Source: Candidatus Acidiferrales bacterium (lineage in GTDB: Bacteria > Acidobacteriota > Terriglobia > Acidiferrales > UBA7541). Taken from it: a stretch of DNA of 32,757 nucleotides. The position numbers and the translations under genes were made by a program. The notes beneath the pieces were generated by a model that was given only the letters and a program-made list of their open reading frames with translations, was not told the origin of the DNA and made no database searches. Each line of letters begins with the position of its first letter. The first letter of the stretch is position 1. Location: contig JASHRM010000127.1 in the NCBI GenBank assembly GCA_030037315.1, positions 1 through 32,757 on the forward strand. The letters run 5' to 3'. Of the stretch, positions 73-28,314 are shown piece after piece.

Positions 73-1116
73 TCAGAAAAGCCCGTGCTGCCGGCGAGGT
101 TCGTCGAAGCCGAAATGCTTGTAGGCAAGCGCCGTCGCAACGCGGCCGCGCTGCGTGCGATCCAGGAGCCCGAGCTGCATCAGATACGGCTCGTAGATTT
201 CTTCGATGGCGTCTTCTTCCTCGCTGAGTGAAGCGGCAATCGTATTCAGCCCGACCGGCCCGCCCGAGTATTTCTGTATGATCGTCAGCATCAAGTTGCG
301 ATCGATATCGTCAAGACCGTATTCGTCAACGCCCAGCATCGCCAAAGAATCACGAGCCACTCCCACCGTGATGTGGCCTTTCGCGCGAACTTCCGCGTAG
401 TCGCGCACTCTTCGCAGCAAACGATTCGCGACGCGCGGTGTCCCGCGGCTGCGTCGCGCAATTTCCGCCGCGCCATCTTTGTCGATCGTGATTCCCAGAA
501 TCTGCGCCGACCGCGTGACGATTTTCTCCAGATCGTCCGGTGTGTAAAACTCCAGCCGGTGCACGATGCCGAATCGCGAACGCAGAGGCGCCATGATCAG
601 CCCCGCGCGCGTGGTCGCGCCGATCAGCGTGAATCGGTTCAGCTGGTATGGATGCACGCGCGCGCCCGGCCCCTGCCCGATAATCAGATCCACACGAAAA
701 TCTTCCATTGCGGGATACAAGATTTCTTCCAGCGCAGGCTGCAGCCGGTGAATTTCGTCCAGAAAGAAAAAATCGCGCGGATCGAGTGACGTCAGCACTG
801 CGGTCAGGTCACCCTTTTTCTCAAGCAGTGGCCCCGAGCTGATTTTGATCGCCGATCCCATCTCGTTCGCAAGAATCTGCGCGAGCGTCGTCTTTCCGAG
901 TCCGGGCGGCCCGTAAAGCAGTACGTGATCGAGCGCTTCGCCGCGCGCCCTCGCCGCTTCCACGGCGATTTGCAGATTTTCTTTCACGCGGTCCTGGCCG
1001 ATGTAATCCCCGAAATTCGACGGCCGGACGCTCGCCTCGATTCGTGCATCCTCATCAAAGGCGCGCCCGGAAACGATTCGATTACGCGGATCGGGTGTTC
1101 GTTTGGCTTCCGGCAT
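73..1116 (-). CDS. ruvB: RuvB, Holliday junction branch-migration ATPase
   Basis: RuvB is the hexameric AAA+ motor that works with RuvA to drive Holliday junction migration during recombinational repair in the cytoplasm. The 347-residue length is normal for the family. Visible motifs are Walker [10 protein letters not shown] at residues 69-77, Walker B FFLDEIHR at 117-124, sensor 1 GATTR at 166-170 and the arginine-finger segment LRSRF near 178-182, followed by the C-terminal winged-helix region. The ATG at 1116 directly follows the ruvA TAA (1119-1117) with no spacer, so translation is almost certainly coupled to ruvA. ruvC is not next to the pair in this window. Identification is secure. 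Confidence 0.98.
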
Positions 1117-1743
1117 TTACGAATCTCCGCCCGCCCGCGCGCTTTTTTGCATGGCGGCGCTTCCAAGAATCTGCAGCGACGCTTTCAGCAGCGTTTCAAA
1201 GTCAGCGCCCGCGTTCGGCCGCGCTTTCTCGATCGCTCGTTCCACCGATCTCGCATCGTATCCGAGATTCACAAGCGCGGAGGCAACATCCGATTCCAGC
1301 TGCGAACGCGGCGCGGGCTTTCCAGCTTCCCGCACGTCCACAACCGCCAGCTTGTCGCGCAGCTCAACCACGATTCGTTCCGCTGTTTTCTTGCCGACGC
1401 CCGGAATCAGCACCAGCCGCGCCACATCACCTTTGCGAATCGCCGGGACCAAATCTTCCAAACCCATTCCCGAAAGAATTTTCAGCGCGAGTGAAGGACC
1501 CACACCCGATGCTGAGATCAGCAATTCGAAGCACTGTTTTTCGCGCGCGGTCAAGAATCCATAAAGAGACAGCTGATCCTCGCGCACGTGCGTATGAATT
1601 AGCAGCGTAGCTTCGCCATGCAGCGCGCCAAGCATGGCAAAAGTAGAAAGCGGAATTTGAATCTGGTATCCGACGCCGCTTACGTCGAGCAGAATCTGGT
1701 TCGGACGCTTATCGACTAATTTCCCGCGAAGCAGGCCAATCAT
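1117..1743 (-). CDS. ruvA: RuvA, Holliday junction DNA-binding subunit
   Basis: RuvA binds the four-way junction as a tetramer and loads RuvB. The 208-residue product has the N-terminal OB-fold (starts MIGLLRGKLV), two helix-hairpin-helix motifs (ISASGVGPSLALKIL around 76-90 and IPGVGKKTAERIVVEL around 113-128) and the C-terminal domain III that contacts RuvB. The ATG at 1743 has no Shine-Dalgarno sequence. It sits only 8 nt after the -10 element of a good sigma-70-like promoter (TTGACA, 17-bp spacer, CATAAT), so the mRNA is probably leaderless. It is the first gene of a ruvA-ruvB operon. Confidence 0.97.
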   Translation of the reverse strand: MIGLLRGKLVDKRPNQILLDVSGVGYQIQIPLSTFAMLGALHGEATLLIHTHVREDQLSLYGFLTAREKQCFELLISASGVGPSLALKILSGMGLEDLVPAIRKGDVARLVLIPGVGKKTAERIVVELRDKLAVVDVREAGKPAPRSQLESDVASALVNLGYDARSVERAIEKARPNAGADFETLLKASLQILGSAAMQKSARAGGDS

Positions 1744-2046
1744 GTCGAGCGATTATGCGGTCAGGCAAAAGGAGTGTCAACGCGAGCGGTCCAAAATGGC
1801 CGTGCGAAAAATGACACATGCGAAAGTGCGAACTCACGCGCGTATTCCAAAATTCGGATAGCGTGCGCAATTCCGTTTTTTTTTGTTGTGCCGATTTCTG
1901 GCACGCCACAAAGATTCAATACGCATCACGCGGGAAAAATGTTCCGCAATTATTTTTCGTGCTGTGTCGCGCAATTTTGCTTTCCTCACAAATCGCCTCT
2001 CGTCTAACCGTGTGCAAGGAGTGAGGTCAAACCAAGGAGGGAAACG
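1744..2046. other. divergent intergenic region ruvA / small exported protein
   Basis: This 303-bp region separates ruvA from a divergently transcribed exported protein. It holds the ruvAB promoter (1752-1780), a run of nine T at 1876-1884 and the strong ribosome-binding site AAGGAGGGAAACG just before 2047. It is less GC-rich than the surrounding genes. I see no convincing ORF, RNA gene or clear promoter for the plus-strand gene. Confidence 0.5.
1752..1780 (-). promoter_or_regulatory. sigma-70-like promoter of ruvAB, probably leaderless
   Basis: Reading the minus strand, TTGACA (1780-1775) is followed by a 17-bp spacer and CATAAT (1757-1752). A start site about 7 nt downstream falls at 1745-1743, on or just before the ruvA ATG, which has no ribosome-binding site. 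The motif match and spacing are seen directly; leaderless transcription is inferred. Confidence 0.7.
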
Positions 2047-2400
2047 ATGTCACGCCGTAAAGCAACTTCGGTACTCGCGGTTTTGGTTGCGTTGATTTTC
2101 GCGACTGCTCTCGCAGCTCGCACCACTTCAGCCAATGCTTCTAAAGAAGCGTCCGCACAAATGGAGTTCACGACTCCCGTGACTTTGGGCGGAACGCATA
2201 TCGATCCAGGAATCTATTCCGTCACGGCGGACGATTCGAAAGTCACGGTTCGCCAAAAGGGGAAAATGATCGCCGAAGCGTCTATTCAGTGGAAGGACGA
2301 GAACGTGAAAGCTAGATACACAAACATCGTCACGGTTGGTGATCAAGTGACTGAAATTCACTTCGGCGGCAAGATGCGCTACGCCGCCATCGCCCGCTAG
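2047..2400 (+). CDS. small exported protein of unknown function
   Basis: The 117-residue product has an N-terminal signal peptide: a basic start MSRRK, a hydrophobic core around residues 8-24 and an Ala-rich cleavage region near 28-37. The mature domain of about 80 residues looks beta-rich. It begins with a phrase of the type FTTPVTLGGTHIDPGIYSV, a pattern I associate with small exported acidobacterial proteins of unknown role. No catalytic motif is visible. Its start is well defined by AAGGAGGG seven bases upstream of the ATG. It stands alone and converges on the aldolase gene, with a terminator at 2441-2483. Function is not known. Confidence 0.8.
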   Translation: MSRRKATSVLAVLVALIFATALAARTTSANASKEASAQMEFTTPVTLGGTHIDPGIYSVTADDSKVTVRQKGKMIAEASIQWKDENVKARYTNIVTVGDQVTEIHFGGKMRYAAIAR

Positions 2401-2440
2401 ATTTGCGCCAGCTCAAAACGTGCGATTACAAGCGGACAAG

Positions 2441-2483
2441 AAGAAGCCTGAGGCTGAACGAAACGCTTCAGGCTTCTTTGTTT
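2441..2483. terminator. bidirectional intrinsic terminator between convergent genes
   Basis: A 14-bp hairpin pairs 2441-2454 with 2465-2478, with one G-T wobble and a 10-nt loop. The plus-strand exit is TTTGTTTC. On the minus strand the U-rich stem base gives TTCTTCTTG. It lies 40 bp after the exported-protein stop (2400) and 10 bp after the aldolase stop (2494), so it probably ends both convergent units. Confidence 0.85.
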
Positions 2484-2493
2484 CGGAATCGTT

Positions 2494-3300
2494 CTACCGG
2501 ATCGAGCGGTCGCGGCGGACGGCTTCATCGATCAGCGACTCAAGTTCGCGGCGAGTCAGCGTGACGCGCTCGGTCGCGCCGTCGGCGTATGAAGTGGGAT
2601 CGTCGGAAGGCATGGGGACGGGTTGCGCGCCGGCAGCATAACGCGCGCGAACGGCTGTCAGTTTCTCTACATCGCCGCCGGAAAGCAAAACTTGTTTGCC
2701 GAGGAGTTCGGTGACCAGCGCAACGCGCGCAAAATGCTCTGTGGTTTCCAAACGCAAAAATGCGGTCAGCAAATCCAGCCCATAAGTCACCACTCCGTGA
2801 TTGGCCATCAAGATTGCGTCGTGGCTGTGCACCAGCGGTTCGAGCGCGGCGCTCAGTTCCGCGGTGCCGGGCGTGCCGTAACGCGCCACCGGAATCGAGC
2901 CCAGGCCGATCACCAGCTCGCACAAAATCGGTTTATCGAGCGCAATTCCCGCAGCGGCGTAACCCGTCGCTGTCGGCGGATGGCCGTGGCAAATCGCATT
3001 CACATCCGGACGCGAGCGATAAATCAGCAAATGCATGCCGAATTCCGAGGAAGGCTTGCGAACGCCCGCGATCCGGCGCCCCTCCAAGTCGATGATGACG
3101 AGGTCGTCCGGCGTCATCATCCCCTTGCTCATGCAAGTGGGAGTCATCAGGATCCGATCGGGACCGAGGCGAACTGAAATGTTCCCGTCGGTGGCCGCCG
3201 CGTAGCCGCGATCGTGAATCCAACGGCCCACAGCGCAAATATCGCTGCGGTGCTCTTCTTCTCTCTTTACAGCCCCATGAGAAATCGACTCGGGTTGCAT
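2494..3300 (-). CDS. class II aldolase/adducin-family protein with C-terminal tail
   Basis: This family contains Zn-dependent aldolases that cleave sugar phosphates such as L-fuculose-1-phosphate or L-rhamnulose-1-phosphate, and related epimerases and decarboxylases. The 268-residue protein has the family signatures GNIS (39-42), PSSEFGMH with putative catalytic Glu86, the Zn-ligand motif HGH at 105-107 and the third His168 in NHGVVTYG. FucA-type enzymes are about 215 residues. The extra ~50 residues here are a Pro/Gly/Asp-rich linker (about 222-244) and a terminal amphipathic helix (about 246-264). It is the last gene of the gpmI unit, 36 bp after gdhA, just before the terminator at 2441-2483. 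The substrate cannot be read from the sequence. Confidence 0.88.
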   Translation of the reverse strand: MQPESISHGAVKREEEHRSDICAVGRWIHDRGYAAATDGNISVRLGPDRILMTPTCMSKGMMTPDDLVIIDLEGRRIAGVRKPSSEFGMHLLIYRSRPDVNAICHGHPPTATGYAAAGIALDKPILCELVIGLGSIPVARYGTPGTAELSAALEPLVHSHDAILMANHGVVTYGLDLLTAFLRLETTEHFARVALVTELLGKQVLLSGGDVEKLTAVRARYAAGAQPVPMPSDDPTSYADGATERVTLTRRELESLIDEAVRRDRSIR

Positions 3301-3336
3301 GCGTGCCTCCGAAGGGGGGCCTGAGCGCGGCGTAGT

Positions 3337-4602
3337 TTAAGCGTAGAAGCCCCGTAATTTCAAGGCCCGAGCAACGCGGTCGATGGCCACGATATAAGCG
3401 GCAATACGATTGTTGACGCTATGCGCTTCCGCATAGCGGACCACTTGGTCAAAGCTGTGTTCCATCACGTCTTGCAGGCGCTCATTGACTTCGCTTTCGC
3501 GCCAGAAGAATCCCTGGCGATCCTGCACCCATTCGAAGTAACTGACCGTCACGCCGCCCGCGTTGCCGAGAATATCGGGAATCACAAAGATTCCTTTCTT
3601 CTCGATAATCGAGTCGGCGTGCGCCGTGGTGGGCCCGTTCGCACCTTCGCAAAGGATTTTGCAGTCCACGCGATGCGCGTTTTGAGACGTAATTTGATTT
3701 TCCGTTGCAGCCGGAACGAGAATGTCGCACGACCGAAACAGAATCTCCTGCGCGGTGGTCCGTTCACCGCCGGCAAACTCCGGCAGCGAACGCCGCTGGT
3801 GATAAACCCAGTCGTAAAGTTTCGGGATGTCGAGTCCGTTTTCGTTGTAGATCGCGCCGTTTACGTCCGCGGCGCCGATGATTTTGTAGCCGGCTTGATG
3901 CATCAGCAACGAACCTTCCGATCCGACGTTGCCGAATCCCTGAACGATCACGCGGGTGCTGTCTCGCTTCAGTCCGAGTTTGCTGATGGCTTTATCGCAG
4001 CAAATCATCAGTCCTCGCCCGGTCGCCTCTTTGCGCCCTTGTGATCCGCCCAGGTCGAGAGGCTTGCCCGTAACAACTGCGGTGGTCGCCTGGCGAACGT
4101 GCATGGAATATGTATCCATGATCCAAGCCATGATTTGGTCGTTCGTGCCGATGTCCGGCGCGGGTATGTCGCGCTCGGGCCCAAGCCAATCGGAGAGCGC
4201 CGCCGTATAACGCCGCGTGACGCGCTCAAGTTCCGACTTCGAGAGCTTGGCAGGATTGCAGATCACGCCGCCCTTTGCCCCTCCGAAGGGAATGTCTACG
4301 ACGGCGCATTTCCAGGTCATCCACGCGGCCAGCGCTCGCACTTCGTCGATGGAAACATCGGGCGCGAAACGCACGCCGCCCTTGCCCGGCCCTCGAACCG
4401 TGGAATGCAGCACGCGATAGCCGGTGAAAACCGCGATCTGTCCCGAGTCGAGCGCTACCGGAATGTAAACGGTGATCTCGCGCTCCGGATACTTCATGTA
4501 GCGGTAAAGGCCCTGCTCTAATCCCAATTTTTCAGCGGCGATTTCGAAACGGGCTTCCGCGGATTCGTAGACATTCAATTCTTCGCTGACGGCAGTCGGC
4601 AT
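3337..4602 (-). CDS. gdhA: glutamate dehydrogenase (Glu/Leu/Phe/Val dehydrogenase family)
   Basis: This enzyme interconverts glutamate and 2-oxoglutarate plus ammonia, linking nitrogen assimilation to the TCA cycle. The 421-residue length is typical of hexameric GDH. Seen motifs are the substrate loop GPGKGGVRF (71-79), Lys98 in WMTWKCAVV, the active-site signature PFGGAKGG (105-112) and the Rossmann loop GFGNVG (222-227). GDH rather than leucine dehydrogenase is favoured by the GPGKGGVRF sequence and the length. Coenzyme preference (NAD or NADP) cannot be settled by eye. A GGGGGAG ribosome-binding site precedes the ATG at 4602. It lies 21 bp downstream of a small membrane protein in the gpmI unit. 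Confidence 0.95.
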
Positions 4603-7548: not shown

Positions 7549-8037
7549 ATGGCCATTTCTGCGGAGGGAAAATTCACGTTCGCCGATGTTTGGCAGGGCG
7601 GCGTTTTTGTGTGCCGCAGGGCGATCGTCATCAATTCAGTTCTGGGCCTCGTGTTGATCGTCAGTGCCGGGTTACTGAGGCGGCTCAGTCCAGAGGGATC
7701 GTGGCTTCAATGGTTCATGTTCGGTTACGGCATTTTCGCACTTATATATTTCTGGATTTTGATTCTGTACCGAAGCAACAAGACCTCAAGACAAAGCCCG
7801 AATTTGCAGGGCGTGGTGAAATACTCCTTCGGCGATAACGGTTACCTGCTAGAAACTGCGCATACTCGGGCCGAGATCAAATGGTCCGCAATGGTGAAAT
7901 GGAGGGAGAATAAACATATTCTTCTTCTCTATTCTCATCCGAGGGTAGGAAGTTTGGTGCCGAAACGGTTCTTTCAAAACGCGGCGGAGGTTGGCGCAGT
8001 GCGCGAGCTGCTGCAGGCGAACGTCAAAAAAGCCTAA
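7549..8037 (+). CDS. YcxB-like membrane protein
   Basis: The frame is open from further upstream, but the ATG at 7549 behind GGGAGG is the best start, giving 162 residues. Two transmembrane segments (about 25-43 and 54-72) are followed by a cytoplasmic domain. Its pattern is like the YcxB C-terminal domain: VVKYSFGDNGY, then a Trp-containing strand EIKWSAMVKW, then VPKRFFQNAAEVG and a C-terminal helix. The role of this family is unknown. A 30-bp gap to the NTF2-like gene on the same strand suggests cotranscription. Confidence 0.75.
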   Translation: MAISAEGKFTFADVWQGGVFVCRRAIVINSVLGLVLIVSAGLLRRLSPEGSWLQWFMFGYGIFALIYFWILILYRSNKTSRQSPNLQGVVKYSFGDNGYLLETAHTRAEIKWSAMVKWRENKHILLLYSHPRVGSLVPKRFFQNAAEVGAVRELLQANVKKA

Positions 8038-9775: not shown

Positions 9776-11347
<1,572 letters not shown>

Positions 11348-12481
11348 ATGGGATTGCGACATCCCGGCTTTAACGTCGACTCCTCGTTTACCGAGTCGGC
11401 CAATCTGGACTTCCTGCGCTCCGTGGCGGTGCTCCTCGTCTTCGTGAGCCACTTTTTTGCTATCGAGGCAGGACTTGGCGCCCAGTGGACTTTTACCTGG
11501 CATCTTGGCCGACTGGGCGTGATGATTTTCTTCGTCCACACATCCCTGGTGCTCATGTGGTCTCTCGAGCGTTCGGGTTTGCAGGGGGATCATTTAATCC
11601 TGCCGTTTTATGTGAGGCGGGCTTTCCGTATTTATCCGCTCAGCATCGTGATGGTGCTTTTCGCCTATCGATTCGACGCGCAATGGCTGCCTGCAAATCT
11701 CTGGCAGAACCTCACGCTCACGCAGTACATTTTTTTTAAGGACACGCCGCATTTTCCTCCGTCGGTGGTCCCGATTTGGTCTCTGCCGCTTGAGATGGAG
11801 ATGTATCTCGTCTTGCCGTTCCTTTTCATGCTTTTTCGAAATCGGTCGCTGAAGTTTTTCGCTGCCTTCTGGGCCGCTACTGTGATCCTCGCGTTCGCGC
11901 AACTGCGATGGAGCGACCGATTCACTCTTCTCGGATACGTGCCATGTTTTCTGGGCGGAGTGGCGGCTTGGCGGCTGATTCGCGAAAGGGATCGTCGCTG
12001 CCTTCCGAGCTGGTTGTGGCCTTTCGGGATCGCCCTGGCCTCCATAGTTTGGATGGTTTCTCGAAGCGAACGATGGCTTCCGCTTTTCACCGCTGCGTTT
12101 GGAATCTGCTTGGGCTTGGCGATTCCGCTCTTTCGCGAAATCGAATGGAGGGCCGTTCGGACCGCCGCCAAGCTCGTGGCGCGCTATAGTTACGGCATCT
12201 ACCTGACTCATTTCGCCGTCATGCTGTACGTGTTTGACAGCCGACAATCCAGCATCCACGGTCATCCACTTTTCCGAGTACTGCCGCCTCTTTTTGGGAT
12301 TCCGCATTACGGGCGCCTGATTGGAACTCTTCTCGCCAGTGTGTTGACCGCGCTCACTTCCGTGATGCTGTACCATGCCGTCGAGAAACCGGGAATTCGT
12401 CTGGGACAAAGCCTTGCGCGCCGAATGGCTCGGATGAATCCCGCAGCCGACAGGCAGAGACCCGCCGAAGCAAGCAGCTAG
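11348..12481 (+). CDS. acyltransferase family 3 membrane protein
   Basis: This integral membrane O-acyltransferase of 377 residues belongs to the Acyl_transf_3 family (NodX/OafA type), which acetylates or succinylates surface glycans, lipids or antibiotics. Seen are the N-terminal ANLDFLRSVAVLLVFVSHF with His35, the RRAFRIYPL motif (90-97), PIWSLPLEMEMY, about ten hydrophobic helices, and the late SYGIYLTHF and HAVEKP motifs. There is no SGNH domain. The target is unknown, and no polysaccharide genes adjoin it. The ribosome-binding site is poor, so the exact start is less certain than the identity. It converges on the beta-lactamase-fold gene. Confidence 0.92.
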   Translation: MGLRHPGFNVDSSFTESANLDFLRSVAVLLVFVSHFFAIEAGLGAQWTFTWHLGRLGVMIFFVHTSLVLMWSLERSGLQGDHLILPFYVRRAFRIYPLSIVMVLFAYRFDAQWLPANLWQNLTLTQYIFFKDTPHFPPSVVPIWSLPLEMEMYLVLPFLFMLFRNRSLKFFAAFWAATVILAFAQLRWSDRFTLLGYVPCFLGGVAAWRLIRERDRRCLPSWLWPFGIALASIVWMVSRSERWLPLFTAAFGICLGLAIPLFREIEWRAVRTAAKLVARYSYGIYLTHFAVMLYVFDSRQSSIHGHPLFRVLPPLFGIPHYGRLIGTLLASVLTALTSVMLYHAVEKPGIRLGQSLARRMARMNPAADRQRPAEASS

Positions 12482-12579
12482 ATTGTCCCGCCCGTTACCA
12501 GGACTCCTCCATCACCAATTTTCCGCAAAACACTCACGCCCATACCTTATCGGGCTGAGTTCGCCCCGTATCGAAAACT

Positions 12580-13977
12580 TCACTCAATCCGCTTTGCGTG
12601 CTGGTCGACGCCGTTTTGGTGCAGGATCAGCTCTGTTGCTTTGCCCTGGCCGTCAGAAACGAAGGTGATTTGCGCGTCCGCGACCTTGTAAAAGTAATCG
12701 CGATCGCCTTCCGCAAAAATCTGAAACTTGGGTTGGCCGGTCAGCTGCGCCATCAGCCGATCGCCCTCACGCGTTATGGTCATCGCGATCCCCGGGGCCA
12801 ACTCGTAGCGCCCGGAGTAGCCATCGAACAACTTCGGATCGACTGGAACTTCCTTGCGCTCGGAAGGCAAGACGATTCTCTCGCCGTGACCGAGGCGGGC
12901 GAGATTAGCAACGATTTCCCCGGTCGCATCGCCATTGCCGTTGGCCAGCACGATAAGGGTGACCTTATCGTCGGGATAATAGGCCATTCCGGTATTGAAT
13001 CCGTTGACTCCTCCATTGTGCTCGATCACGTTTCGTCCGTTTGCCGTGTGTACTTGCAAGCCGAAGGCGTATTCGTTTTTGAAAGGCGTGGTCATTTTGA
13101 TGAGAGAGGCACTCGAGAGAAGTTTTCCACCAAAAAGACCCCGCTCCCAGCGCAGCAGATCCTCCGTTGTGGAGTAAAGACCTCCAGCTGCAAACGGAAC
13201 GGTCATATTGATGAAGTCCGCATTCGCGAGTCCTCCGGGTCCCGGCTGGTAACCGGATGCGCGTTGCGGGATGATCGCTGAATTGGAGTCATAGCCCGAG
13301 TCGTTCATGCCGAGTGGGGTGAAGATATTTTCCTGAAGGAATTTGGCGTAGGTCTCACCCGTGATCTTTTCGATCAGATAACCGAGCAAGACGTAGTTCG
13401 AATTGCTGTAGCTCCATTTCTCGCCGGGTTCGAAATCGAGAGGCTTGTCGCGGAAACGACTAACGAGCTGCGCCGGTGTGGCCGCGAGGGCTTGAGTCGA
13501 AAGGTAGTCCGGGAAGCTCGTGAAGTTCGGTATGCCTGATGTGTGCGTCAACAGATTGAAGATCGTGATTTTGTCCCACGCCGCGGGCGCATCCGGCATG
13601 TATTTCTTCACGGGATCGTTCACGCTGAGTTTGCCGCGCTCCTCCAGCAGAAGAATGCAAGCCGCTGTGAATTGCTTGGTGATCGATCCGAGCCGGAATT
13701 TGGTCGTTGGAGAGTTGGGGATGTGCCACTCGAGATTGGCGTAGCCGTAGCCTTTGTCGAGGATGATGTCGTTGCCCCGGGCTACAAGAACGGAGCCCAT
13801 GAATTGCTTGCTGGAAACGTCCGATTGAATCAACTGCTCCATGCGCGCGACATCGAAACCTGGAGACGCTGCGGCGGGGGGCTGTTGGGCAGAAACCGAC
13901 GTACTCGAGAGTGCGAGGCAGGCCAACAGGAGCAAGAGGCCCACCCAATTGCGTGCACGACTCGGTGATCTCATCAC
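12580..13977 (-). CDS. secreted serine hydrolase, beta-lactamase/PBP4* family
   Basis: This is a 465-residue exported class C beta-lactamase-like serine hydrolase. The signal peptide covers residues 1-30 (cleavage SVSA-QQ). The catalytic set is SxxK at Ser98-Lys101 (GSITKQF), the LLTHTSGIP block at 142-150, YSN at 190-192, and HNGG (320-323) in place of the KTG motif. Residues from about 370 onward form an extra beta-rich domain (LFDGYSGRYELAPG...) like DUF3471. Such proteins are esterases, D-aminopeptidases or peptidases more often than true beta-lactamases, so resistance should not be assumed. GAGGGG precedes the ATG. It lies 33 bp downstream of glgC and may share its transcript. Confidence 0.92.
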   Translation of the reverse strand: MMRSPSRARNWVGLLLLLACLALSSTSVSAQQPPAAASPGFDVARMEQLIQSDVSSKQFMGSVLVARGNDIILDKGYGYANLEWHIPNSPTTKFRLGSITKQFTAACILLLEERGKLSVNDPVKKYMPDAPAAWDKITIFNLLTHTSGIPNFTSFPDYLSTQALAATPAQLVSRFRDKPLDFEPGEKWSYSNSNYVLLGYLIEKITGETYAKFLQENIFTPLGMNDSGYDSNSAIIPQRASGYQPGPGGLANADFINMTVPFAAGGLYSTTEDLLRWERGLFGGKLLSSASLIKMTTPFKNEYAFGLQVHTANGRNVIEHNGGVNGFNTGMAYYPDDKVTLIVLANGNGDATGEIVANLARLGHGERIVLPSERKEVPVDPKLFDGYSGRYELAPGIAMTITREGDRLMAQLTGQPKFQIFAEGDRDYFYKVADAQITFVSDGQGKATELILHQNGVDQHAKRIE

Positions 13978-14010
13978 ACCCCTCGTCTTAGGATCGGCTA
14001 CGAGCTGCGA

Positions 14011-15243
14011 TTACTCGGGCTCTTCGATCATGGACTCTGGACGGACGACCACAACGACGCCGCTGTCGGAGACGTGATAACGGCGGCGGTCGGCTTCGAG
14101 ATCGTGGCCGATGACGGTTCCTTCCGGCAAGTTTACGTGGCGATCAATGATGGCGCGGCGGATGCGGCTGTGGCGGCCTATGTTCACGTGGTTGAAGATG
14201 ATTGATTCCTCGACTTCGCTATAGCTGTTCACGCGCACATCGTAACCGACCACAGAACGCGAGACGCGCCCGCCGGAAATAATGGAGCCGCCGGAGACGA
14301 TTGAGTCGAAAGCGACGCCCATGCGCTGAGGATCGGCGAAGACGAATTTGGCCGGAGGATATTGACGCTGCCAACTGTGCAACGGCCAACTCGGATCGTA
14401 GAGATTCAGGATCGGAGTGACAGACACGAGATCCATGTTGGCTTCGTGATAGGCGTCGATGGTGCCGACGTCGCGCCAGTACGAAGTTTCTTTTTTGTTT
14501 TCATCACGAAAGTTGTAGGCGAAAACGCGGTACTTATCGATGATGCGCGGGATAATATCTTTTCCGAAATCGTGCGATGAAGTCTGATTCTCCGCGTCAT
14601 CGAGCAGAATCGGAACCAGAAGTTGCGTATTGAAGAGATAGACGCCCATCGAGCCGTTTACTTTTCCGGGATGGATGCGAGAGGACTTGGGGTTAATGGG
14701 CTTCTCTTCGAACCCGATAATGCGCCAGTGCTCGTCGGTTTCAAGGACGCCGAATTTTCCGGAAGCTTCCGCCGCATCCATTTCGATGGTCGCCACGGTG
14801 ACGTCAGCGCCGGAATCGGCATGCTGCTGAAGCATCTTTTGGTAATCCATCTTGTAGATGTGGTCGCCGGAGAGAATGAAAACGTAATTGGATTGCTCGC
14901 TGCCAATCGAATAAATGTTTTGGTAAACAGCGTCCGCAGTGCCTTGATACCAGTGCTGCGAAACGCGCATTTGCGGAGGCAAAACTTCGATAAAATCTCC
15001 ATAGCCCATTAGCGAGGACCAGCCGCGGCGAACGTGGCGATTGAGGCTGAGCGCCTTATACTGGGTGAGGACGAACACGCGGCGCAGATGGCTATTCAAA
15101 CAGTTCGAGAGGGTGAGGTCGATGATGCGGTAGACGCCGCCGAACGAGACGGCGGGCTTGGCGCGGTCGCGCGTTAGCGGCCAAAGGCGCTCGCCTTGTC
15201 CTCCCGCGAGGAGAACGCCGATCGCCTCATTCATCGATGGCAT
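14011..15243 (-). CDS. glgC: glucose-1-phosphate adenylyltransferase
   Basis: GlgC makes ADP-glucose, the committed step of bacterial glycogen synthesis. The 410-residue protein has the nucleotidyltransferase start VLLAGGQGERLWPLTRDR (about 10-27) with the RAKPAVSFGG pyrophosphorylase motif, IIDLTLSNCLNS, YQGTADAVYQN, the catalytic FILSGDHIYKMDY region and FEEKP. A C-terminal left-handed beta-helix follows. AAGGAG lies 12 bases upstream of the ATG at 15243; an internal ATG at 15234 is less well placed. An extended -10 promoter is seen at 15271-15279. Other glycogen genes are not adjacent. Confidence 0.96.
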   Translation of the reverse strand: MPSMNEAIGVLLAGGQGERLWPLTRDRAKPAVSFGGVYRIIDLTLSNCLNSHLRRVFVLTQYKALSLNRHVRRGWSSLMGYGDFIEVLPPQMRVSQHWYQGTADAVYQNIYSIGSEQSNYVFILSGDHIYKMDYQKMLQQHADSGADVTVATIEMDAAEASGKFGVLETDEHWRIIGFEEKPINPKSSRIHPGKVNGSMGVYLFNTQLLVPILLDDAENQTSSHDFGKDIIPRIIDKYRVFAYNFRDENKKETSYWRDVGTIDAYHEANMDLVSVTPILNLYDPSWPLHSWQRQYPPAKFVFADPQRMGVAFDSIVSGGSIISGGRVSRSVVGYDVRVNSYSEVEESIIFNHVNIGRHSRIRRAIIDRHVNLPEGTVIGHDLEADRRRYHVSDSGVVVVVRPESMIEEPE

Positions 15244-15270
15244 GGGCCGGGAAATCTCCTTACGGACAGC

Positions 15271-15279
15271 ATTCTAGCA
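15271..15279 (-). promoter_or_regulatory. extended -10 promoter of glgC
   Basis: On the minus strand, TGC immediately precedes TAGAAT, an extended -10 element, with no good -35. The predicted start near 15264 would give a leader of about 20 nt carrying the AAGGAG ribosome-binding site of glgC. Confidence 0.5.
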
Positions 15280-15351
15280 GCACGAATATGCGGAAAGGCG
15301 GGCATTTTGCGCGCGGCCCTCGCGCCAAAACATGATCTCGCCGAACAAATA

Positions 15352-15363
15352 TACCGATCGGTA
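15352..15363. promoter_or_regulatory. perfect 12-bp palindrome TACCGATCGGTA, operator-like
   Basis: This perfect palindrome with AT-rich flanks sits between the divergent glgC and rpsU promoters, about 40 bp upstream of the rpsU -35. Its form (ACCGATCGGT) resembles TetR-family operators. No TetR gene is present in the window, so the regulator is unknown. Confidence 0.4.
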
Positions 15364-15404
15364 AAATGACAAGACAGTGCAACGGCTCGTATGCAATTTA
15401 AAAC

Positions 15405-15433
15405 TTGACTTAAAGGGTAGCCTCCAGTAGAAG
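15405..15433 (+). promoter_or_regulatory. sigma-70-like promoter of rpsU
   Basis: TTGACT (15405-15410), a 17-bp spacer and TAGAAG (15428-15433) are seen. The predicted start near 15440 leaves an untranslated leader of about 80 nt before the GTG at 15523, which contains an inverted repeat. Confidence 0.6.
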
Positions 15434-15443
15434 AAGGGGCAAC

Positions 15444-15468
15444 TACCGGGTTCGCGAGGATGCCGGTA
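15444..15468 (+). promoter_or_regulatory. inverted repeat in the rpsU leader
   Basis: TACCGG (15444-15449) pairs with CCGGTA (15463-15468) around a 13-nt loop, immediately after the predicted transcription start. It may be a mRNA-stabilising hairpin or part of a ribosomal-protein autoregulatory leader. There is no U-run, so it is not a standard terminator. Confidence 0.4.
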
Positions 15469-15522
15469 ATCCGAAAGTTGAATCTAACCATTCAATTTCA
15501 AAAGGGACGGGGGTGAATACGC

Positions 15523-15720
15523 GTGGCAGAAGTTGTTATTCAAGAGGGCGAGTCTTTGGAAAACGCTCTCCGGCGCTTCAAGCGAAAGGTGCAGTCGGAG
15601 GACATCATCAAGGAGATCAAGAAGCACAGCTACTACATGAAGCCCGGGGAAAAGCGTCGAGCCAAGCAAGCTCTCTCGCGTAAACGTCTCCGAAAAAAGC
15701 AGCGGCGTGAACAGGACTAA
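15523..15720 (+). CDS. rpsU: 30S ribosomal protein bS21
   Basis: bS21 is a small, strongly basic 30S subunit protein near the mRNA exit/anti-Shine-Dalgarno region, needed for initiation. The 65-residue product matches family length and sequence: VVIQEGESLENALRRFKRK, then HSYYMKPGEKRRAKQ and a very basic C-terminal stretch. The start is a GTG at 15523, with GGGGGTG upstream. Expression is probably driven by the promoter at 15405-15433 with a structured leader. A zinc-ribbon gene follows after 138 bp. Confidence 0.97.
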   Translation: MAEVVIQEGESLENALRRFKRKVQSEDIIKEIKKHSYYMKPGEKRRAKQALSRKRLRKKQRREQD

Positions 15721-15858
15721 CCGACCCAATCACTGGGAAGTTTCCAAGCAGGCTCGTGCCAGCGGATCACAAGGATCGCTCGCTCAGCAGCGTTCGTCCA
15801 GCTGCGGGCACGAGGCTGCTGCGCTGCCCCTTCCGCGAACACGGCCCCGGAGCGGCCT

Positions 15859-16176
15859 ATGGAATACCATGATAAGGTCCTGAAGTGCGCAGAATGCGGG
15901 GCTGAATTCGTCTTCACCGCCGGCGAGCAGATGTTTTTCGCCGACAAGGGTTTCAAGAACGAACCGAAGCGGTGCAAGGCGTGCAAGTCGAATCGAGCAG
16001 TAGGGGGCGAAGCGAGCCCGGGCGTTCAAAAGGTGGAGACCAAAACCGTTTGCTCGCAATGCGGGAAAGAAACCACGGTTCCATTCAAGCCGACCCAAGG
16101 CCGTCCCGTATATTGCCGGGAGTGCTTCCAACACAGGCGCGCGGTGGGAACGCCCAGCGCAGCTGTGCAACAGTAG
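15859..16176 (+). CDS. double zinc-ribbon protein (CxxC-x17-CxxC type)
   Basis: This is a 105-residue protein with two treble-clef or ribbon-like zinc sites. The first uses Cys10/Cys13 (LKCAECG) and Cys39/Cys42 (RCKACK). The second uses Cys65/Cys68 (VCSQCG) and Cys86/Cys89 (YCREC), with exactly 17 residues between the pairs. The GRPVYCREC ending is typical of the CxxC-x17-CxxC domain family. The N-terminal ribbon resembles the probable zinc-binding domain often fused to it. Function is unknown; nucleic-acid or ribosome association is a guess from the fold and from its place downstream of rpsU. GGAG precedes the ATG. Confidence 0.85.
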   Translation: MEYHDKVLKCAECGAEFVFTAGEQMFFADKGFKNEPKRCKACKSNRAVGGEASPGVQKVETKTVCSQCGKETTVPFKPTQGRPVYCRECFQHRRAVGTPSAAVQQ

Positions 16177-16415
16177 GAACTTCACCGGCGTTGTCGGATA
16201 CTACAGCCGCGAGCTTGTCCCAGACGACGAGACTTGCCGAAGCGCGCGAGTACTGTGCGTCCCGTTCCTGGGTTGTCCTTTTCCTTCCCTGTCGCGAATT
16301 CTACAGGGTTTACCGTATTGGAGTGGTGCCGCAGAATTGTGGATGATTCGTCACTCCATGGAGGGTCTGGTCGCTCCGGGCTCTTTATCTGAAATCGCCA
16401 GGTAGGAATTACGAG

Positions 16416-18200
16416 TTGTTGAAAAATATCTCTGCTGAAACCGCGAAGACGGCCGCTGCATCCGGAGCCGCCCGGAAGGATTGTTTTCTCGATTCATTCG
16501 ATCCCATTCATGAAGGCCACGTAGTGCAGTTCTATACAGATGACGCGGTACTCATCGATGGATTGGCGCGATTCATTGGCGGAGCTTTGCGAGAGGGCAA
16601 TGGCGCCATCGTAATCGCGACGCTGGCACATCGGGAAAAGCTGAGAGCCGCGCTGACAAAGCGCGGCATTCCGCTAGCCCAGCGGATTGAAGAAGGCCGG
16701 TTCAGAGATCTGGATGCAGCTGACACCCTGTCGATGATTACAGTCGATGGGCGCCCCAACGCGACCCTGTTCACATCGGTAATGAATCAGGCGGTCGATC
16801 AGATTCGCGCAAAGAGCGCAAACCCCGCGCAACCGGTTGCGGGCTTCGGCGAGATGGTCGCGCTGCTGTGGGGCGCGGGCAAGATCGAAGCGGCGATTCG
16901 GCTCGAGCAGTTGTGGAACGATTTCGCGCTAGAGAACCGTATTGCGCTGCGATGTGCGTATCCCATGATCCATTTCGATAGGGAGCGCGATACGGAGATG
17001 TACCTGAAGGCTTGTGCCGAACATTCAGCCGTGATCCCGAGCCAGAGGCACGATCGAATGGGCGCGGCTCCTGAGGGAACTCAAGGTGGGGGCGCCAGGG
17101 GTCGCCAGGATTTACACGAGTTTGAGGCAGAGGCGGCTCTGCACCAAAGTGAAGAGCGTTTCCGGCTCTTCGTCGATAACGTGCAGGACTACGCGATTTT
17201 CATGCTGGACACGGAAGGACGAGTGGACAGTTGGAACGCCGGAGCGGAGAGGATCAAGGGCTATAAGGCCTCGGAAATAATTGGAAAGCATTTTTCCTGC
17301 TTCTATCCTCCGGAAGAGATTGCGGCCGGCAAACCGCAAAGGGATCTGGAAATCGCGGCGCAGCACGGCCGCTACGAGGATGAAGGATGGCGCGTGCGCG
17401 GAGACGGCACACGCTTTTACGCGAGCCTGATTTTAACCGCGGTGAAGGACAGCGCGGGCCGGCTTCGCGGGTTCGGCAAGGTGACGCGCGATATTACGGA
17501 ACGGATTGACGTCGAGCGCAAGCTACGGCAGTCCGAGCACTCGTTGCGCAGACTGTCAGGACACCTGCTCCGGACGCAGGACGAAGAACGGCGCCGATTG
17601 GGGCGCGAACTGCACGACAGCGTTGGGCAGTATCTTGCCGCGTTGAAGATGGCCCTTAGCTCTTTGACGGTCGAAGACAACGAGAAAGTCGATGAGTGTT
17701 TGCGGCTGGCAGACCAGTCCATCGCGGAGATACGAACGATTTCCTATCTTTTGTATCCGCCCATGCTGGAAGAGTTGGGTCTGCGATCGGCGATACCCTG
17801 GTATCTGGAAGGCTTTTCGAAACGCAGCGGCATTCAAATCAAGCTGGATATTACTCCAGACTTTGAAAGGCTTTCCCGCGATTCCGAACTGGCGCTCTTC
17901 AGAATTTTGCAGGAAAGTTTGACAAACGTCCATAGACACTCGGGAAGCAAGACGGCGGAAATTCGGCTGAGCCGAACGCAAGAAGCTGTTTTCCTTGAAG
18001 TGATCGATCAAGGCAAAGGCATGCCGGTTGAGGCATTGAGCCAAACTCAGAGCGATAGCGGCGCTTTCGGCGTGGGGCTTCGCGGAATGACCGAGCGCAT
18101 GCGCCAATTAGAGGGCGACTTGGAAATCACATCTTCGAATGCGGGAACCAAAGTGCGGGCCACGCTTCCGGTAAAGCAGCGCACTGCAGACGGGGACTGA
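16416..18200 (+). CDS. MEDS-PAS sensor histidine kinase (NarX/DesK-type)
   Basis: This is a 594-residue soluble hybrid sensor. Residues about 33-200 form a MEDS domain (starts HVVQFYTDDAVLIDGLARF), the input module first described in DcmR and methanogen sensors. Residues about 246-362 form a PAS domain ending in KVTRDITER. A short coiled linker leads to a HisKA_3 domain with phosphoacceptor His400 in GRELHDSVGQ, then an HATPase_c domain (about 490-590) with LQESLTNVHRHS, DQGKGM and GVGLRGM boxes. No transmembrane segment is evident, so it senses a cytoplasmic cue. The best available start is TTG at 16416 with AGGA upstream; this start is uncertain. The partner receiver gene lies 86 bp downstream. 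Confidence 0.92.
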   Translation: MLKNISAETAKTAAASGAARKDCFLDSFDPIHEGHVVQFYTDDAVLIDGLARFIGGALREGNGAIVIATLAHREKLRAALTKRGIPLAQRIEEGRFRDLDAADTLSMITVDGRPNATLFTSVMNQAVDQIRAKSANPAQPVAGFGEMVALLWGAGKIEAAIRLEQLWNDFALENRIALRCAYPMIHFDRERDTEMYLKACAEHSAVIPSQRHDRMGAAPEGTQGGGARGRQDLHEFEAEAALHQSEERFRLFVDNVQDYAIFMLDTEGRVDSWNAGAERIKGYKASEIIGKHFSCFYPPEEIAAGKPQRDLEIAAQHGRYEDEGWRVRGDGTRFYASLILTAVKDSAGRLRGFGKVTRDITERIDVERKLRQSEHSLRRLSGHLLRTQDEERRRLGRELHDSVGQYLAALKMALSSLTVEDNEKVDECLRLADQSIAEIRTISYLLYPPMLEELGLRSAIPWYLEGFSKRSGIQIKLDITPDFERLSRDSELALFRILQESLTNVHRHSGSKTAEIRLSRTQEAVFLEVIDQGKGMPVEALSQTQSDSGAFGVGLRGMTERMRQLEGDLEITSSNAGTKVRATLPVKQRTADGD

Positions 18201-18286
18201 AGGTTTATAAATCGGCGAGGGTTTGTGTTGAAGTCATTGGTTCGAGCAGCCCCTCCTGATATTTGTAGTTTATGTGTGGAGAGGCT

Positions 18287-18715
18287 ATGGCTTTATCTCC
18301 CAGAATTCTAATTGTTGACGACCATGAGGTAGTGCGCCAGGGCGTGCGCACGATCGTGCAAAAGTCGCGCCCCGAATGGCAAGTCATCGGCGAAGCAGTA
18401 AACGGAATCGAGGCCATCGAAGCGGCGAAGCTGCACGATCCGGACATCATTATTCTGGATATAACGATGCCCGTGATGAGCGGTCTCGAAGCCGCTTCGC
18501 ACATCACCAAGCTGGGCAATCATTCGTCGATTCTGATCTTCACCATGCACGAATCCGAGCGCTTGATGGCCGAGGTGCGCGAGGTGGGCGCCCAGGGCAT
18601 CGTCCACAAGTCCAAAGCGGGTCGCGATCTGATTCTCGCGATTGACACGCTGCTCGGCGGTGGGACTTTCTTCGGCGGCCCCCTAAAACCGATCATATCC
18701 GGCGGCGGAAAATAG
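18287..18715 (+). CDS. single-domain response regulator, NarL-type receiver without HTH
   Basis: ATG at 18287 behind GGAGAGG gives 142 residues; an upstream in-frame ATG at 18272 is less likely. The receiver is intact: acidic Asp11/Asp12, phosphoacceptor Asp58 (IIILDITMP), Thr86 and Lys108 (IVHKSKAG). The sequence is closest to NarL/LuxR-type receivers, but it ends after a Gly-rich tail (LLGGGTFFGG...) where the linker to the LuxR helix-turn-helix would begin. No HTH remnant is seen downstream in any frame. It is probably phosphorylated by the kinase encoded upstream and acts through protein contacts. Confidence 0.9.
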   Translation: MALSPRILIVDDHEVVRQGVRTIVQKSRPEWQVIGEAVNGIEAIEAAKLHDPDIIILDITMPVMSGLEAASHITKLGNHSSILIFTMHESERLMAEVREVGAQGIVHKSKAGRDLILAIDTLLGGGTFFGGPLKPIISGGGK

Positions 18716-18794
18716 CGCTCGCTGTTTGTTAATCCGGGTCGTTCACTCACACTGTTTCTGCTCCCTGCGAATTTTTGCGCCGTTCGCCGCAGAA

Positions 18795-18823
18795 TTGACC
18801 CATCCGCAAGCTGAGCCTAAAAT
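18795..18823 (+). promoter_or_regulatory. sigma-70-like promoter of the DinB-family gene
   Basis: TTGACC (18795-18800), a 17-bp spacer and TAAAAT (18818-18823) form a near-consensus promoter. The predicted start near 18830 gives a short leader containing GGGGACGGAA before the ATG at 18848. Confidence 0.7.
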
Positions 18824-18847
18824 TGTTGAAGTTTGGGGACGGAACTC

Positions 18848-19327
18848 ATGAACGAAAAAGAATTGCGCGATTTTCTCCGCCGGACGCTGAGCTGGCACGA
18901 AGCTCATGTGGATTGGAAAAAGGCGGTCAACGGGATTCCGGAGAAACTGCGCGGAAGCCGGCCGAAAGGCGCTGAGCACTCACCGTGGGAATTGCTCGAG
19001 CACATGCGAATCGCCACATGGGACATTTTGGAATTTTCGCGAGGGAACAATCATAAGTCTCCGGAATGGCCCGCTGGGTACTGGCCGAAGAAGCACGCGC
19101 CGGAAAGCGCCGCGGCATGGAATCGCAGCGTCAAAGAGCTTGAACGCGACATTGAGGGCATGGGCGAACTGGTGGCCGATCCCAAGACGGATTTGCTCGC
19201 TCCAATTCCGGGCGGTTCAGGACAAAATATTTTGCGCGAAGCGCTGTTGATTGCGGATCACAATGCGTATCACGTTGGCCAACTCGTGCTGGTGCGCAGG
19301 TTATTGGGTTGCTGGCCGGAAAACTGA
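18848..19327 (+). CDS. DinB-family protein
   Basis: This is a 159-residue cytoplasmic DinB/YfiT-like four-helix-bundle protein. The presumed metal triad is complete: His52 (WELLEHMRIA), His138 and His142 (DHNAYHVGQLV). The ATG at 18848 is chosen over a TTG fifteen bases upstream because it sits correctly after GGGGACGGAA and the promoter at 18795-18823. Family members include bacillithiol and mycothiol S-transferases and uncharacterised stress proteins. The role here is unknown. sucA follows after 101 bp. Confidence 0.9.
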   Translation: MNEKELRDFLRRTLSWHEAHVDWKKAVNGIPEKLRGSRPKGAEHSPWELLEHMRIATWDILEFSRGNNHKSPEWPAGYWPKKHAPESAAAWNRSVKELERDIEGMGELVADPKTDLLAPIPGGSGQNILREALLIADHNAYHVGQLVLVRRLLGCWPEN

Positions 19328-19428
19328 GGGCGAGTTGAGCCGGTTAATCGCGAGCAAGGCATCTTAATATGGAGCGCAACGCGAGCGCTGCCGAGCAAAG
19401 TGCAATCCTTCGCATTTAGGGGAGCTCG

Positions 19429-21900: not shown

Positions 21901-21941
21901 GTTTGGCTAGCGGCAGTCGTTGGGTCGGCTAGCGCCAAGGT

Positions 21942-21967
21942 CAGTTGCCGGGCCGCGCCCCTGCGAA
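21942..21967 (+). repeat. dispersed palindromic repeat, copy 3 (degenerate)
   Basis: GTTGCCGGGCCGCGCCCCTGCGAAA shares GCCGCGCCCC-TnCGAA with the copy at 6809-6839, but its left arm is eroded. It lies between the convergent sucA and methyltransferase genes. Confidence 0.35.
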
Positions 21968-21992
21968 ACACTGCACATCCCGCAAGCCGTAC

Positions 21993-23015
21993 TCATACGC
22001 GCGAAATGATCAGGCTGTGATCGCTAATTTGCATCGGCCGAAGCTCATTCGAGGAAAAACCGGCGTTGCGAAACATTCGGTCGTATTCGGAGAAGGTGTA
22101 AGCGTCGCCGCCGGGAGTCATGCCCAGCATCATCATGCTGAATGCTGCGGCGCGCGGCGGTGAAACGCGATCGTCATTGGGAATGAAATCGAGGGTCACA
22201 GCGATCCCGCCGGGCGCAAGAGCGGCGCGAATTTTCCGCAGGAGCGATTCGTTCGTCGGCGGATCGAAGTGGTGAAGGAAGCTGGTAATCAGAATCACGT
22301 CGTAACCCGAGCCGAAGTCCACCTCGAACGCGCTGCCGGGCAGTCGATGAAAGCGCGACTCGATTCCAGCGGCTCGCGCATTTTCGGCGGCCACTTCCAG
22401 CACTGGCGCCCAGTCCTGCGCGAAAATTTCGGCCTTAGGATTGTGCTTGCCCAATGCAATGCCGAAAATTCCGTGTCCACCGGCGATATCGAGCACTTTC
22501 CACTTTTTGCCGGCATCTAGGTTTAGAACGTGCGCAATTTCTTCTGCGATCGGGCGCATCGTCGAGCCCATCGAGCGCGCAAACTCGACCCATATCGGAT
22601 TTTCGTCCGCGACGGAGCCTTCGCCATCCTTCATGGCGGGCCGGCCGGTGCGAATCGTCTGCGCGAGATGCATAAAGGCATCCACCGTTTCAGGCAAGGT
22701 GAGAAACGCGGCGGTCGAGCCCTGGTATTTGGGAGATCTACGGTCGAGAAAGGCTGCGGATTCAGGAGCGAGCGAATACCGATGATCTTTTTTGGTGAGA
22801 AAGCCGATGATTGTCAGGTAGTCACAGAGAATGCGGATGCCGCGTTCGGTGGCTTTGCAATGCGTGGCGAGAGTTTCAGCCGTGTCGAAGCCTCGGCCGA
22901 TCGCCGTGAAAATATCGAGCTCGATGGCGGCGCGAAGCGCGGCCGTTTGCTGATAGCCGTTCAGCGTTTGGTGAACGATTGAAGGATTGAGATTCGGACT
23001 GGATTGCGATGCCAT
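21993..23015 (-). CDS. ASMT-like O-methyltransferase
   Basis: This 340-residue protein has the two-part layout of acetylserotonin/hydroxyneurosporene-type O-methyltransferases. The N-terminal winged-helix dimerisation domain covers about 12-95 (LNGYQQTAALRAAIELDIF...LATHCKATERGIRILCDYL). The SAM-binding Rossmann domain follows from about 165, with motif I VLDIAGGHGIFGIAL at 174-188, the SFLHHFDPP motif and an ALAPGGIAVTLDF strand. The acceptor is unknown; relatives methylate small aromatic or polyketide metabolites. The gene stands alone, convergent with sucA. Its ATG lacks an obvious ribosome-binding site. Confidence 0.9.
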   Translation of the reverse strand: MASQSSPNLNPSIVHQTLNGYQQTAALRAAIELDIFTAIGRGFDTAETLATHCKATERGIRILCDYLTIIGFLTKKDHRYSLAPESAAFLDRRSPKYQGSTAAFLTLPETVDAFMHLAQTIRTGRPAMKDGEGSVADENPIWVEFARSMGSTMRPIAEEIAHVLNLDAGKKWKVLDIAGGHGIFGIALGKHNPKAEIFAQDWAPVLEVAAENARAAGIESRFHRLPGSAFEVDFGSGYDVILITSFLHHFDPPTNESLLRKIRAALAPGGIAVTLDFIPNDDRVSPPRAAAFSMMMLGMTPGGDAYTFSEYDRMFRNAGFSSNELRPMQISDHSLIISRV

Positions 23016-23264
23016 TCGCGATTTACCGAATGCAAGTATTACTTCTAGGATATGGGTGAATCACGGCGGGTCATTTTGCCGCGAGGATTGGCCGATAAGC
23101 AATAGCGAATACCCGCGTTGCAAGCGGCCAACTGTTCGGAGTGGAAATTTTCGTAGGTCAGGTTACACTCATGGCCCGGGAAATCCCTAGAAGAGCGAGT
23201 TTGCCGGCGCGCGCAGGCGTGCGGGCGCAGGTCTGTATTACAAACGCATAGACGGCGGAAAACC

Positions 23265-24101: not shown

Positions 24102-24246
24102 TCTGCACGAATTCAACGCTTCTTGGATGGTACGTTCGTGCCATTGCTCCACCCTGATCAAGCTGGCAATTTTGGATCGACGGCGACAGGTCGAAGTCTG
24201 CCCGGACCGCAGATCCGCTGGCGCAGGCTTTGACCGGGTGTTGTTG

Positions 24247-24648: not shown

Positions 24649-24714
24649 CGAATCGCGCCCAAAACTCGCGCTTCACCCTTCGCGCTGTTACCATTCCCTG
24701 ATTGCAATTTTCGC

Positions 24715-26373: not shown

Positions 26374-28314
<1,941 letters not shown>

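Follow-up and report, generated by a model that had tools for sequence, protein, structure and literature searches.

The stretch of DNA analysed here, referred to as the window, comprises 32,757 nucleotides of a Candidatus Acidiferrales genome (G000). At 2494..3300 on the minus strand lies a class II aldolase gene, encoding 268 aa from an ATG start and recognised by Pfam, whose product we regard as a putative former cargo enzyme of an ACI-type microcompartment. The initial annotation had read this open reading frame as a class II aldolase, and the assignment is confirmed, on the minus strand and with the catalytic residues intact. The gene is preceded, 36 bp upstream, by a minus-strand gene for a Glu/Leu/Phe/Val dehydrogenase (GDH; 3337..4602; Pfam PF00208/PF02812), and the two probably belong to one operon. 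On its other side, a 93-bp spacer (2401..2493) separates the aldolase gene from a plus-strand gene for a small hypothetical protein (2047..2400), which has no Pfam match and was placed by synteny; relatives of this protein sit beyond the shell genes in G223 and G270. Next come, on the minus strand, ruvA (1117..1743), assigned from the adjoining ruvB, its own sequence and synteny and not from a family search, and ruvB itself (73..1116; Pfam RuvB_N and RuvB_C, and synteny). By synteny, the spacer is the position at which relatives hold BMC-H and BMC-P genes; it gives no shell match and includes a hairpin at about 2441-2478, predicted by folding and unflagged by the consensus scan. GDH, ruvA and ruvB served as syntenic anchors, ruvA lying beyond the shell cassette of the relatives. 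The arrangement seen at 73-4602, a GDH-aldolase pair with ruvA-ruvB beyond it, is recurrent in the order. The window region 9776-28314 holds ordinary chromosomal genes by Pfam: enolase (9776-11140), a beta-lactamase-fold protein (12580-13977), a MEDS-domain histidine kinase (16416-18200), an E1-type dehydrogenase (19429-21900), tilS (24715-26211), and ftsH (26374-28314).

The catalytic core spans residues 1-221 (2638..3300, minus strand) according to AlphaFold2 secondary structure and pLDDT and to Foldseek, with Pfam Aldolase_II covering residues 20-195. The best Foldseek matches are 6btg, 6btd, and entries of FucA, the L-fuculose-1-phosphate aldolase, and identity to the FucA-type structural matches (PDB 1fua; also 6btd) is about 28-32%. 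E86, H105, H107, and H168 are invariant across 78 aligned aldolase rows; to these we map, by assumption, the roles of FucA E73, H92, H94, and H155 as catalytic acid and metal ligands. The window aldolase shares with FucA the fold as well as the acidic residue and three histidines, so that the zinc-binding histidines and the catalytic acid of a FucA-type metal site are present. It differs in that FucA chains have about 215 aa and end before the linker and helix described below. The protein scores below the cut-off for each of the 25 NCBIfam families listed, and it is the only class II aldolase match in the window genome.

In the AlphaFold2 model, built on 78 orthologues, the last core helix occupies residues 208-221. 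It is followed by a linker (residues 222-249; 2554..2637, minus strand) that is predicted to be disordered, with mean pLDDT values of 60 (221-230), 49 (231-240), and 64 (241-250), and that evolves faster than its surroundings. The chain closes with a C-terminal helix at residues 250-267 (2500..2553, minus strand; pLDDT blocks 95 and 91), which we assign as a putative encapsulation peptide (EP) on the basis of pLDDT, dN/dS, and the shell-bearing orthologues. Together, the position of the last core helix, the low-confidence linker, and the terminal helix bear out the domain layout proposed in the initial annotation, i.e., a domain end near residue 221 followed by linker and helix. The helix had also been described as amphipathic. 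The seven 19-residue windows with the highest hydrophobic moment in the aldolase all fall within the tail, in line with this description, but the moment of residues 248-266 (0.43 versus a mean of 0.29 for same-letter shuffles; P = 0.17) lies within chance, and we rejected amphipathicity as proof of an EP. EPs are amphipathic helices of about 15-20 residues that a flexible linker joins to one end of a cargo enzyme and that bind shell protein so as to direct the cargo into the lumen. The tail does have the form of an EP, a helix joined through a low-confidence linker, with the moment to be read at P = 0.17.

Its residues are better conserved than chance would allow. Leucine occupies positions 253 and 256 in all 53 shell-free sequences compared, position 257 is I or V in 53/53, and position 260 is A in 52/53, while the linker diverges across the same set; this comparison excludes those lineages in which the helix has disappeared or been altered. 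The window tail retains a hydrophobic face and, on our own reading, places opposite charges one turn apart (R250-E254 and D258-R262). If the E7-R11 salt bridge of the PduP tail is taken to align to window positions 254 and 258, the bridge is absent, both positions being acidic. R250-E254 and D258-R262 could be stand-ins for it.

The named relatives of the window genome are Acidobacteriota MAGs, including Candidatus Acidiferrales and Terriglobia. Among the 95 genomes of the order, BMC-H scored above the cut-off in 22, of which 21 were kept, and BMC-P in 19, of which 18 were kept. The PF00936 match in G279 (25.1 bits, positions 14-62) was discounted since the ORF reads by eye as an acyltransferase, presumably of the FabD kind; the PF03319 match in G022 (26.1 bits) was discounted as it spans 28 of 83 positions. 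With both genomes counted as shell-free, 74 of the 95 are shell-free by our own count. In all 19 shell-bearing genomes with a readable locus, the aldolase gene is followed on the same strand by BMC-H, and in 17 of them by BMC-P too, the exceptions being G098 and G285; the unread loci among the 21 are those of G174 (whose aldolase match covers 46 residues and is followed by BMC-H) and G271 (a weak match). Each of the 18 BMC-P genomes has three or four BMC-P genes, some of them away from the aldolase locus. Outside the order, 15 shell-bearing loci were checked, and each of them has the aldolase with BMC-H and BMC-P in the same arrangement. The tails of shell-bearing aldolases, e.g., LTREELEALIEEAV, ITVTREELIALIDEAV, and ISLTRSELIDLIERVV, align with the window tail LTRRELESLIDEAV. 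The likeness to an EP suggested in the initial annotation holds up well, as the same helix is found on the same enzyme in shell-bearing relatives, directly upstream of BMC-H/BMC-P. As judged from the alignment, the window tail shares common ancestry with the EP of an aldolase that serves as microcompartment cargo, one encoded together with shell genes in the shell-bearing orthologues and apart from any in the window genome.

A pfam00596 class II aldolase with a C-terminal EP is described for the ACI microcompartment in the catalogue entry of Sutter 2021 (PMC8217296), which reports ACI primarily from Acidobacteria subdivisions 4 and 6. Our shell-bearing relatives resemble ACI in two respects: the aldolase followed by BMC-H and BMC-P genes corresponds to the ACI main locus, and in the three genomes read (G110, G130, and G094) a distant second BMC-H lies beside an aldehyde dehydrogenase, PF00171 being confirmed for G110 and G130. 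The window protein is likewise a pfam00596 aldolase with a C-terminal EP. The window genome departs from ACI in having neither the BMC-H (PF00936) and BMC-P triplet (PF03319) found in shell-bearing relatives nor a matching satellite aldehyde dehydrogenase (PF00171; no match at E <= 1e-60 in G000). In the aldehyde dehydrogenase census, which used a PF00171 query and scored 11 first-look candidates per genome, a relative of the shell-type enzyme at E <= 1e-60 was present in 17 of 95 genomes, namely 16 of the 21 shell genomes and the shell-free G259; the G259 match has 31% identity and is regarded as unrelated. Five shell genomes gave no match (G098, 97% complete, and G223, G285, G251, and G252, 59-79% complete), so that absence of this enzyme does not by itself identify a genome that has lost the shell. 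Since the searches turned up neither shell nor aldehyde dehydrogenase, we class the protein as an aldolase of ACI type by apparent descent, outside the ACI microcompartment itself. The initial annotation had pointed to aldolase cargo of the Planctomycetes type; its microcompartment aldolase origin stands, and the type is ACI rather than PVM. PVM (PvmN) is similar in also having a pfam00596 aldolase, by catalogue description only (PMC8217296).

As noted before, no shell gene occurs in the window, and a profile search of the whole window genome (3.68 Mb, 82.6% complete, 339 contigs) returned 0 PF00936 and 0 PF03319 matches, with E. coli and the Synechococcus ring as controls. The locus order in the window is GDH, aldolase, hypothetical protein, RuvA, RuvB; in G223, which belongs to the same genus, it is GDH, aldolase, BMC-H, three BMC-P, small hypothetical proteins, RuvA, RuvB. 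Comparison of the two shows that the window lacks the shell genes at a site that is assembled and otherwise corresponds to that of G223, whose own assembly is 79% complete and has the aldolase locus on a 10-kb contig. GDH adjoins the aldolase in 60 of the 72 shell-free and 17 of the 20 shell-bearing loci fetched, and RuvA or RuvB falls within the fetched stretch in 35/72 and 8/20, respectively, many of these stretches extending no further than 1.5 kb beyond the aldolase. No shell match at E <= 1e-3 was obtained in any of the 72 shell-free loci, four of which are paralogues. A search of their spacers for shell remnants gave a best E of 0.007 versus 0.013 with reversed queries, and no remnant is claimed.

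Nearly all genomes of the order (92/95) have some aldolase match, and 87 rows were usable, 19 shell-bearing and 68 shell-free; paralogues marked b were left uncounted save G182b, the second half of a split gene. The strict EP motif is present in 18/19 shell-bearing rows, the lone miss being G270 with its broken aldolase frame, and in 54/68 shell-free rows. A present cargo function, which the initial annotation had entertained, is contradicted by these results: the genome has no detectable shell genes, the cassette position is empty, and shell-free members of the same clade keep the tail, the absence of shell genes and such retention having been named beforehand as speaking against it. Among the 14 shell-free misses, the helix is still recognisable on reading in G277, G014, and G162, and it is lost or changed in G280, G269, G186, G226, G037, G273, G051, G114, G190, G138, and G166. 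By lineage, it is missing or changed in g5 (3 genomes) and g6 (5) and in G280, G269, and G186. In g5 (G226, G037, and G273; L216, L229, and L230), the aldolase has lost the tail helix and forms a long branch in the tree; the shell-bearing G272 of the same genus has kept its tail helix. The aldolase tree, which omits ten rows (fragments, paralogues, G270, and G186), requires three state changes, two of them forced by well-supported branches, and leaves the number of shell losses unsettled. Core identity falls to 0.62 within g1 and 0.66 within g2, which suggests that shells have been absent for a long time, supposing a single origin of this state in each clade.

Outside the order, we tabulated 95 genomes from a class sample of 250 drawn from a larger group, typing each from the aldolase matches listed, which extend down to about 224 bits; of the 87 genomes outside the order that bear shell genes, 21 have no aldolase among the matches listed and do not appear in the table. 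A tail was mostly scored where the alignment reached residue 254 or beyond. By hand, G078 and G021 (listed ends 223 and 244) were moved to the tail class after reading, and G099, whose match runs through stops, to the class with no tail. In this table, the aldolase reaches the helix in 66/66 BMC-H genomes (64 from the matches listed and two after reading) and in 12 of 29 shell-free genomes, all of family f7; the other 17 align only up to the linker or are changed. None of the 12 tail-bearing f7 genomes is among the BMC-P genomes, and their tails, e.g., EKIEITRKQLLSIIDEALKVRG, were read individually. The shell-free aldolases of G054 and G181, the latter also from f7, stop before the helix. Its absence or alteration in g5, g6, G280, G269, G186, and 17/29 genomes outside the order indicates that any role of the helix is dispensable in those lineages.

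Where the helix is kept, it changes slowly. We compared 22 near-sister pairs from shell-free genomes of g1, g2, and g4, hand-picked from the aldolase tree, some of whose forks are poorly supported; G280, G014, G162, G269, g5, and g6 were left out, g5 and g6 being analysed apart. dN/dS was 0.08 (0.07-0.08) for the core, 0.17 (0.13-0.22) for the linker (taken here as residues 216-244), and 0.09 (0.06-0.12) for the helix (residues 245-268), synonymous sites being near saturation in many pairs and dS therefore rough. The rate of change in residues 216-244 is roughly double that in core and helix, and positions 248, 250, 253, 256, 257, 260, and 265 show no within-pair difference in any of the 22 pairs. 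Against neutrality, the binomial P for the helix is 1.6e-56, with differences treated as independent. Shell-bearing pairs gave a similar helix dN/dS of 0.11 (7 pairs); the value in g6 was 0.29 (0.12-0.61; 2 pairs), and in g5 nine helix codons align (1 pair). In f7, five pairs, partly non-sister and with saturated linker dS, show 42 non-synonymous and 53 synonymous differences in the helix (P 5.5e-10 against neutrality). Taken as a comparison of sequences, these values argue strongly that the helix is under purifying selection in shell-free genomes.

One genome of the order appears to be caught between the two states. G098 (L329, G098:C36:24000-38000, about 7552-8019), 97% complete, has kept BMC-H with ruvA close behind, and we found in it neither a BMC-P gene nor a shell-type aldehyde dehydrogenase. 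Between BMC-H and ruvA lies a 39-bp piece about 90% identical to the relatives' BMC-P gene (blastn E 5e-7 to 2e-11 against close relatives), the sole remnant seen. With BMC-H only and an EP-bearing aldolase, G098 looks like a half-way state of microcompartment loss. No BMC-P was found either in its tree sister G285, which has BMC-H and is 71% complete.

These comparisons make it very likely that the window aldolase descends from an ACI-type microcompartment that has lost its shell. Loss rather than gain of the shell genes is the simpler polarity because shell genes adjoin the aldolase across several families. The ancestors would have built an ACI-type microcompartment with the aldolase as its signature enzyme; the adjoining shell genes and the distant aldehyde dehydrogenase would then have been lost, and the aldolase retained with its C-terminal EP. 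An EP that stays under selection after shell loss suggests that the helix retains a function independent of the shell. We therefore favour, as the rather probable overall explanation, that a former ACI cargo tag persists for a purpose that needs no shell, most likely to let the aldolase assemble with itself. FucA-family aldolases are tetrameric, and EP bundles might join such tetramers into a larger assembly or condensate, with a presumed benefit.

Several published observations fit such a role. Trettel et al. 2025 (PMC12339742) attribute condensation by metabolosome EPs to packing of hydrophobic residues, with an Ile at the centre, together with an E-R salt bridge that spans one helical repeat; the effect is described as stronger when the carrier is a tetramer. 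In E. coli, enzymes tagged with EPs are described as clustering into dense aggregates that remain active, whether or not shells are present (Lee et al. 2016, PMC4909751). Another description has EPs bind in the groove where shell tiles meet (PMC11157265), which is impossible in a genome without such tiles. By analogy, we tentatively name self-assembly as the reason for selection on the helix, ranking it ahead of a binding partner and of a structural role in the tetramer. Among the proteins of 24 genomes searched with a tail profile, none but the aldolase carries the tail at significance (the next matches have E 0.02 in the shell-bearing G102 and E 0.05 in G022), which favours self-association over a partner bearing the same tag; the profile is blind to EPs of other sequence, e.g., a suspected N-terminal helix on the aldehyde dehydrogenase.

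That the helix is instead kept for binding another, non-shell partner, such as the adjoining GDH or a membrane or scaffold protein, we consider unlikely. The adjacency of GDH (60/72 shell-free and 17/20 shell-bearing loci) would suit this idea, and the search of 24 genomes would leave room for a partner with no such tail or a different one. However, the tail-keeping G005 and G217 have no GDH match in the 1.5 kb flanks of the aldolase. Less likely again is that the enzyme has absorbed the helix into its own structure, where it would lie against the tetramer and either add stability or shield the active site. This would be in keeping with g2, where the linker is constrained nearly like the helix (dN/dS 0.10 and 0.08) and predicted with higher confidence than in the window protein: its blocks at 221-240 have pLDDT 75 and 79, with five models disagreeing (mean pLDDT 57 to 89). 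In g2, a further change of role may have followed. G058 (L221, residues about 222-245) and other g2 rows share a conserved linker motif, PPPGGGAELP. The window helix, however, hangs on a low-confidence linker, and the existence of tail-less shell-free aldolases (G054 and G181, which end before the helix, and the 17/29 genomes outside the order aligning only to the linker) indicates that the fold does not need it. An active EP with overlooked shell genes, conceivable for an incomplete or divergent genome (82.6% complete, 339 contigs), is very improbable given that the relatives' shell position is assembled and empty and that g1 G044, G086, G118, G134, G182, and G241 (92-96% complete) and g2 G005 and G142 (98% complete) have 0 BMC-H/BMC-P and no shell-type aldehyde dehydrogenase match. 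We give equally little credence to a neutral relic on its way out, as might be read from the tails gone or changed in g5, g6, G280, G269, and G186 and the g6 helix dN/dS of 0.29 (0.12-0.61; 2 pairs), in view of the helix dN/dS of 0.09 (P 1.6e-56, differences taken as independent) at core identities down to 0.62-0.66 in shell-free genera.

Self-assembly of the aldolase would place it beside known EP systems. With the PduP and PduD EPs as presented by Trettel et al. 2025 (PMC12339742), the window tail shares a short helix on a linker, a hydrophobic core centred on Ile/Val, residues of opposite charge spaced by one helical turn, and a carrier enzyme whose family is oligomeric, and it differs in the positions of the salt bridges. 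Those EPs derive either from shell-bearing systems or from engineered fusions, whereas here a natural EP appears to be under selection with no detectable shell. The aggregates of Lee et al. 2016 (PMC4909751) are alike in that shell-less EP-tagged enzymes can cluster and stay active; they were engineered in E. coli from four enzymes, in contrast to the single natural enzyme of this study, for which clustering is proposed. In the open-access literature, we found no report of EPs kept in shell-free genomes. It seems to us almost an even call whether EPs have outlived their organelle in at least two Acidobacteriota families, staying under selection long after shell loss and serving now as a shell-free assembly tag. 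If true, nature would here have its own version of the shell-free condensates that until now have come from engineering, and the finding bears on whether an EP is only an address label for the shell or a gatherer of enzymes in its own right. The order would then offer a natural experiment, in which the shell is gone and the peptide selected in some lineages and not in others, beside the BMC-H-only G098, as well as natural protein pairs for comparing shell-free assembly. For annotation, an EP on an enzyme is no proof of a microcompartment in the genome; the genome analysed here is a case in point, that of a soil bacterium with a sugar-type aldolase and an organelle-type tail without adjoining organelle genes. 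The kept tail and the lost shell, taken together, are a result that the initial annotation had not foreseen.

Two further features of the shell-bearing genomes were observed. The satellite aldehyde dehydrogenases (L264 8135-10345 and L265 7529-9292) have long Ala/Pro-rich C-terminal extensions in which further short helix-like segments can be seen by eye, and in L265 a gene for a GAF-GGDEF protein (9862-10980) adjoins BMC-H. On contig G266:C76 (L253), there is a second aldolase-BMC-H-BMC-P locus, whose aldolase is 50% identical to that of the window and has an f7-like tail; it is perhaps the product of a transfer or a binning mix.
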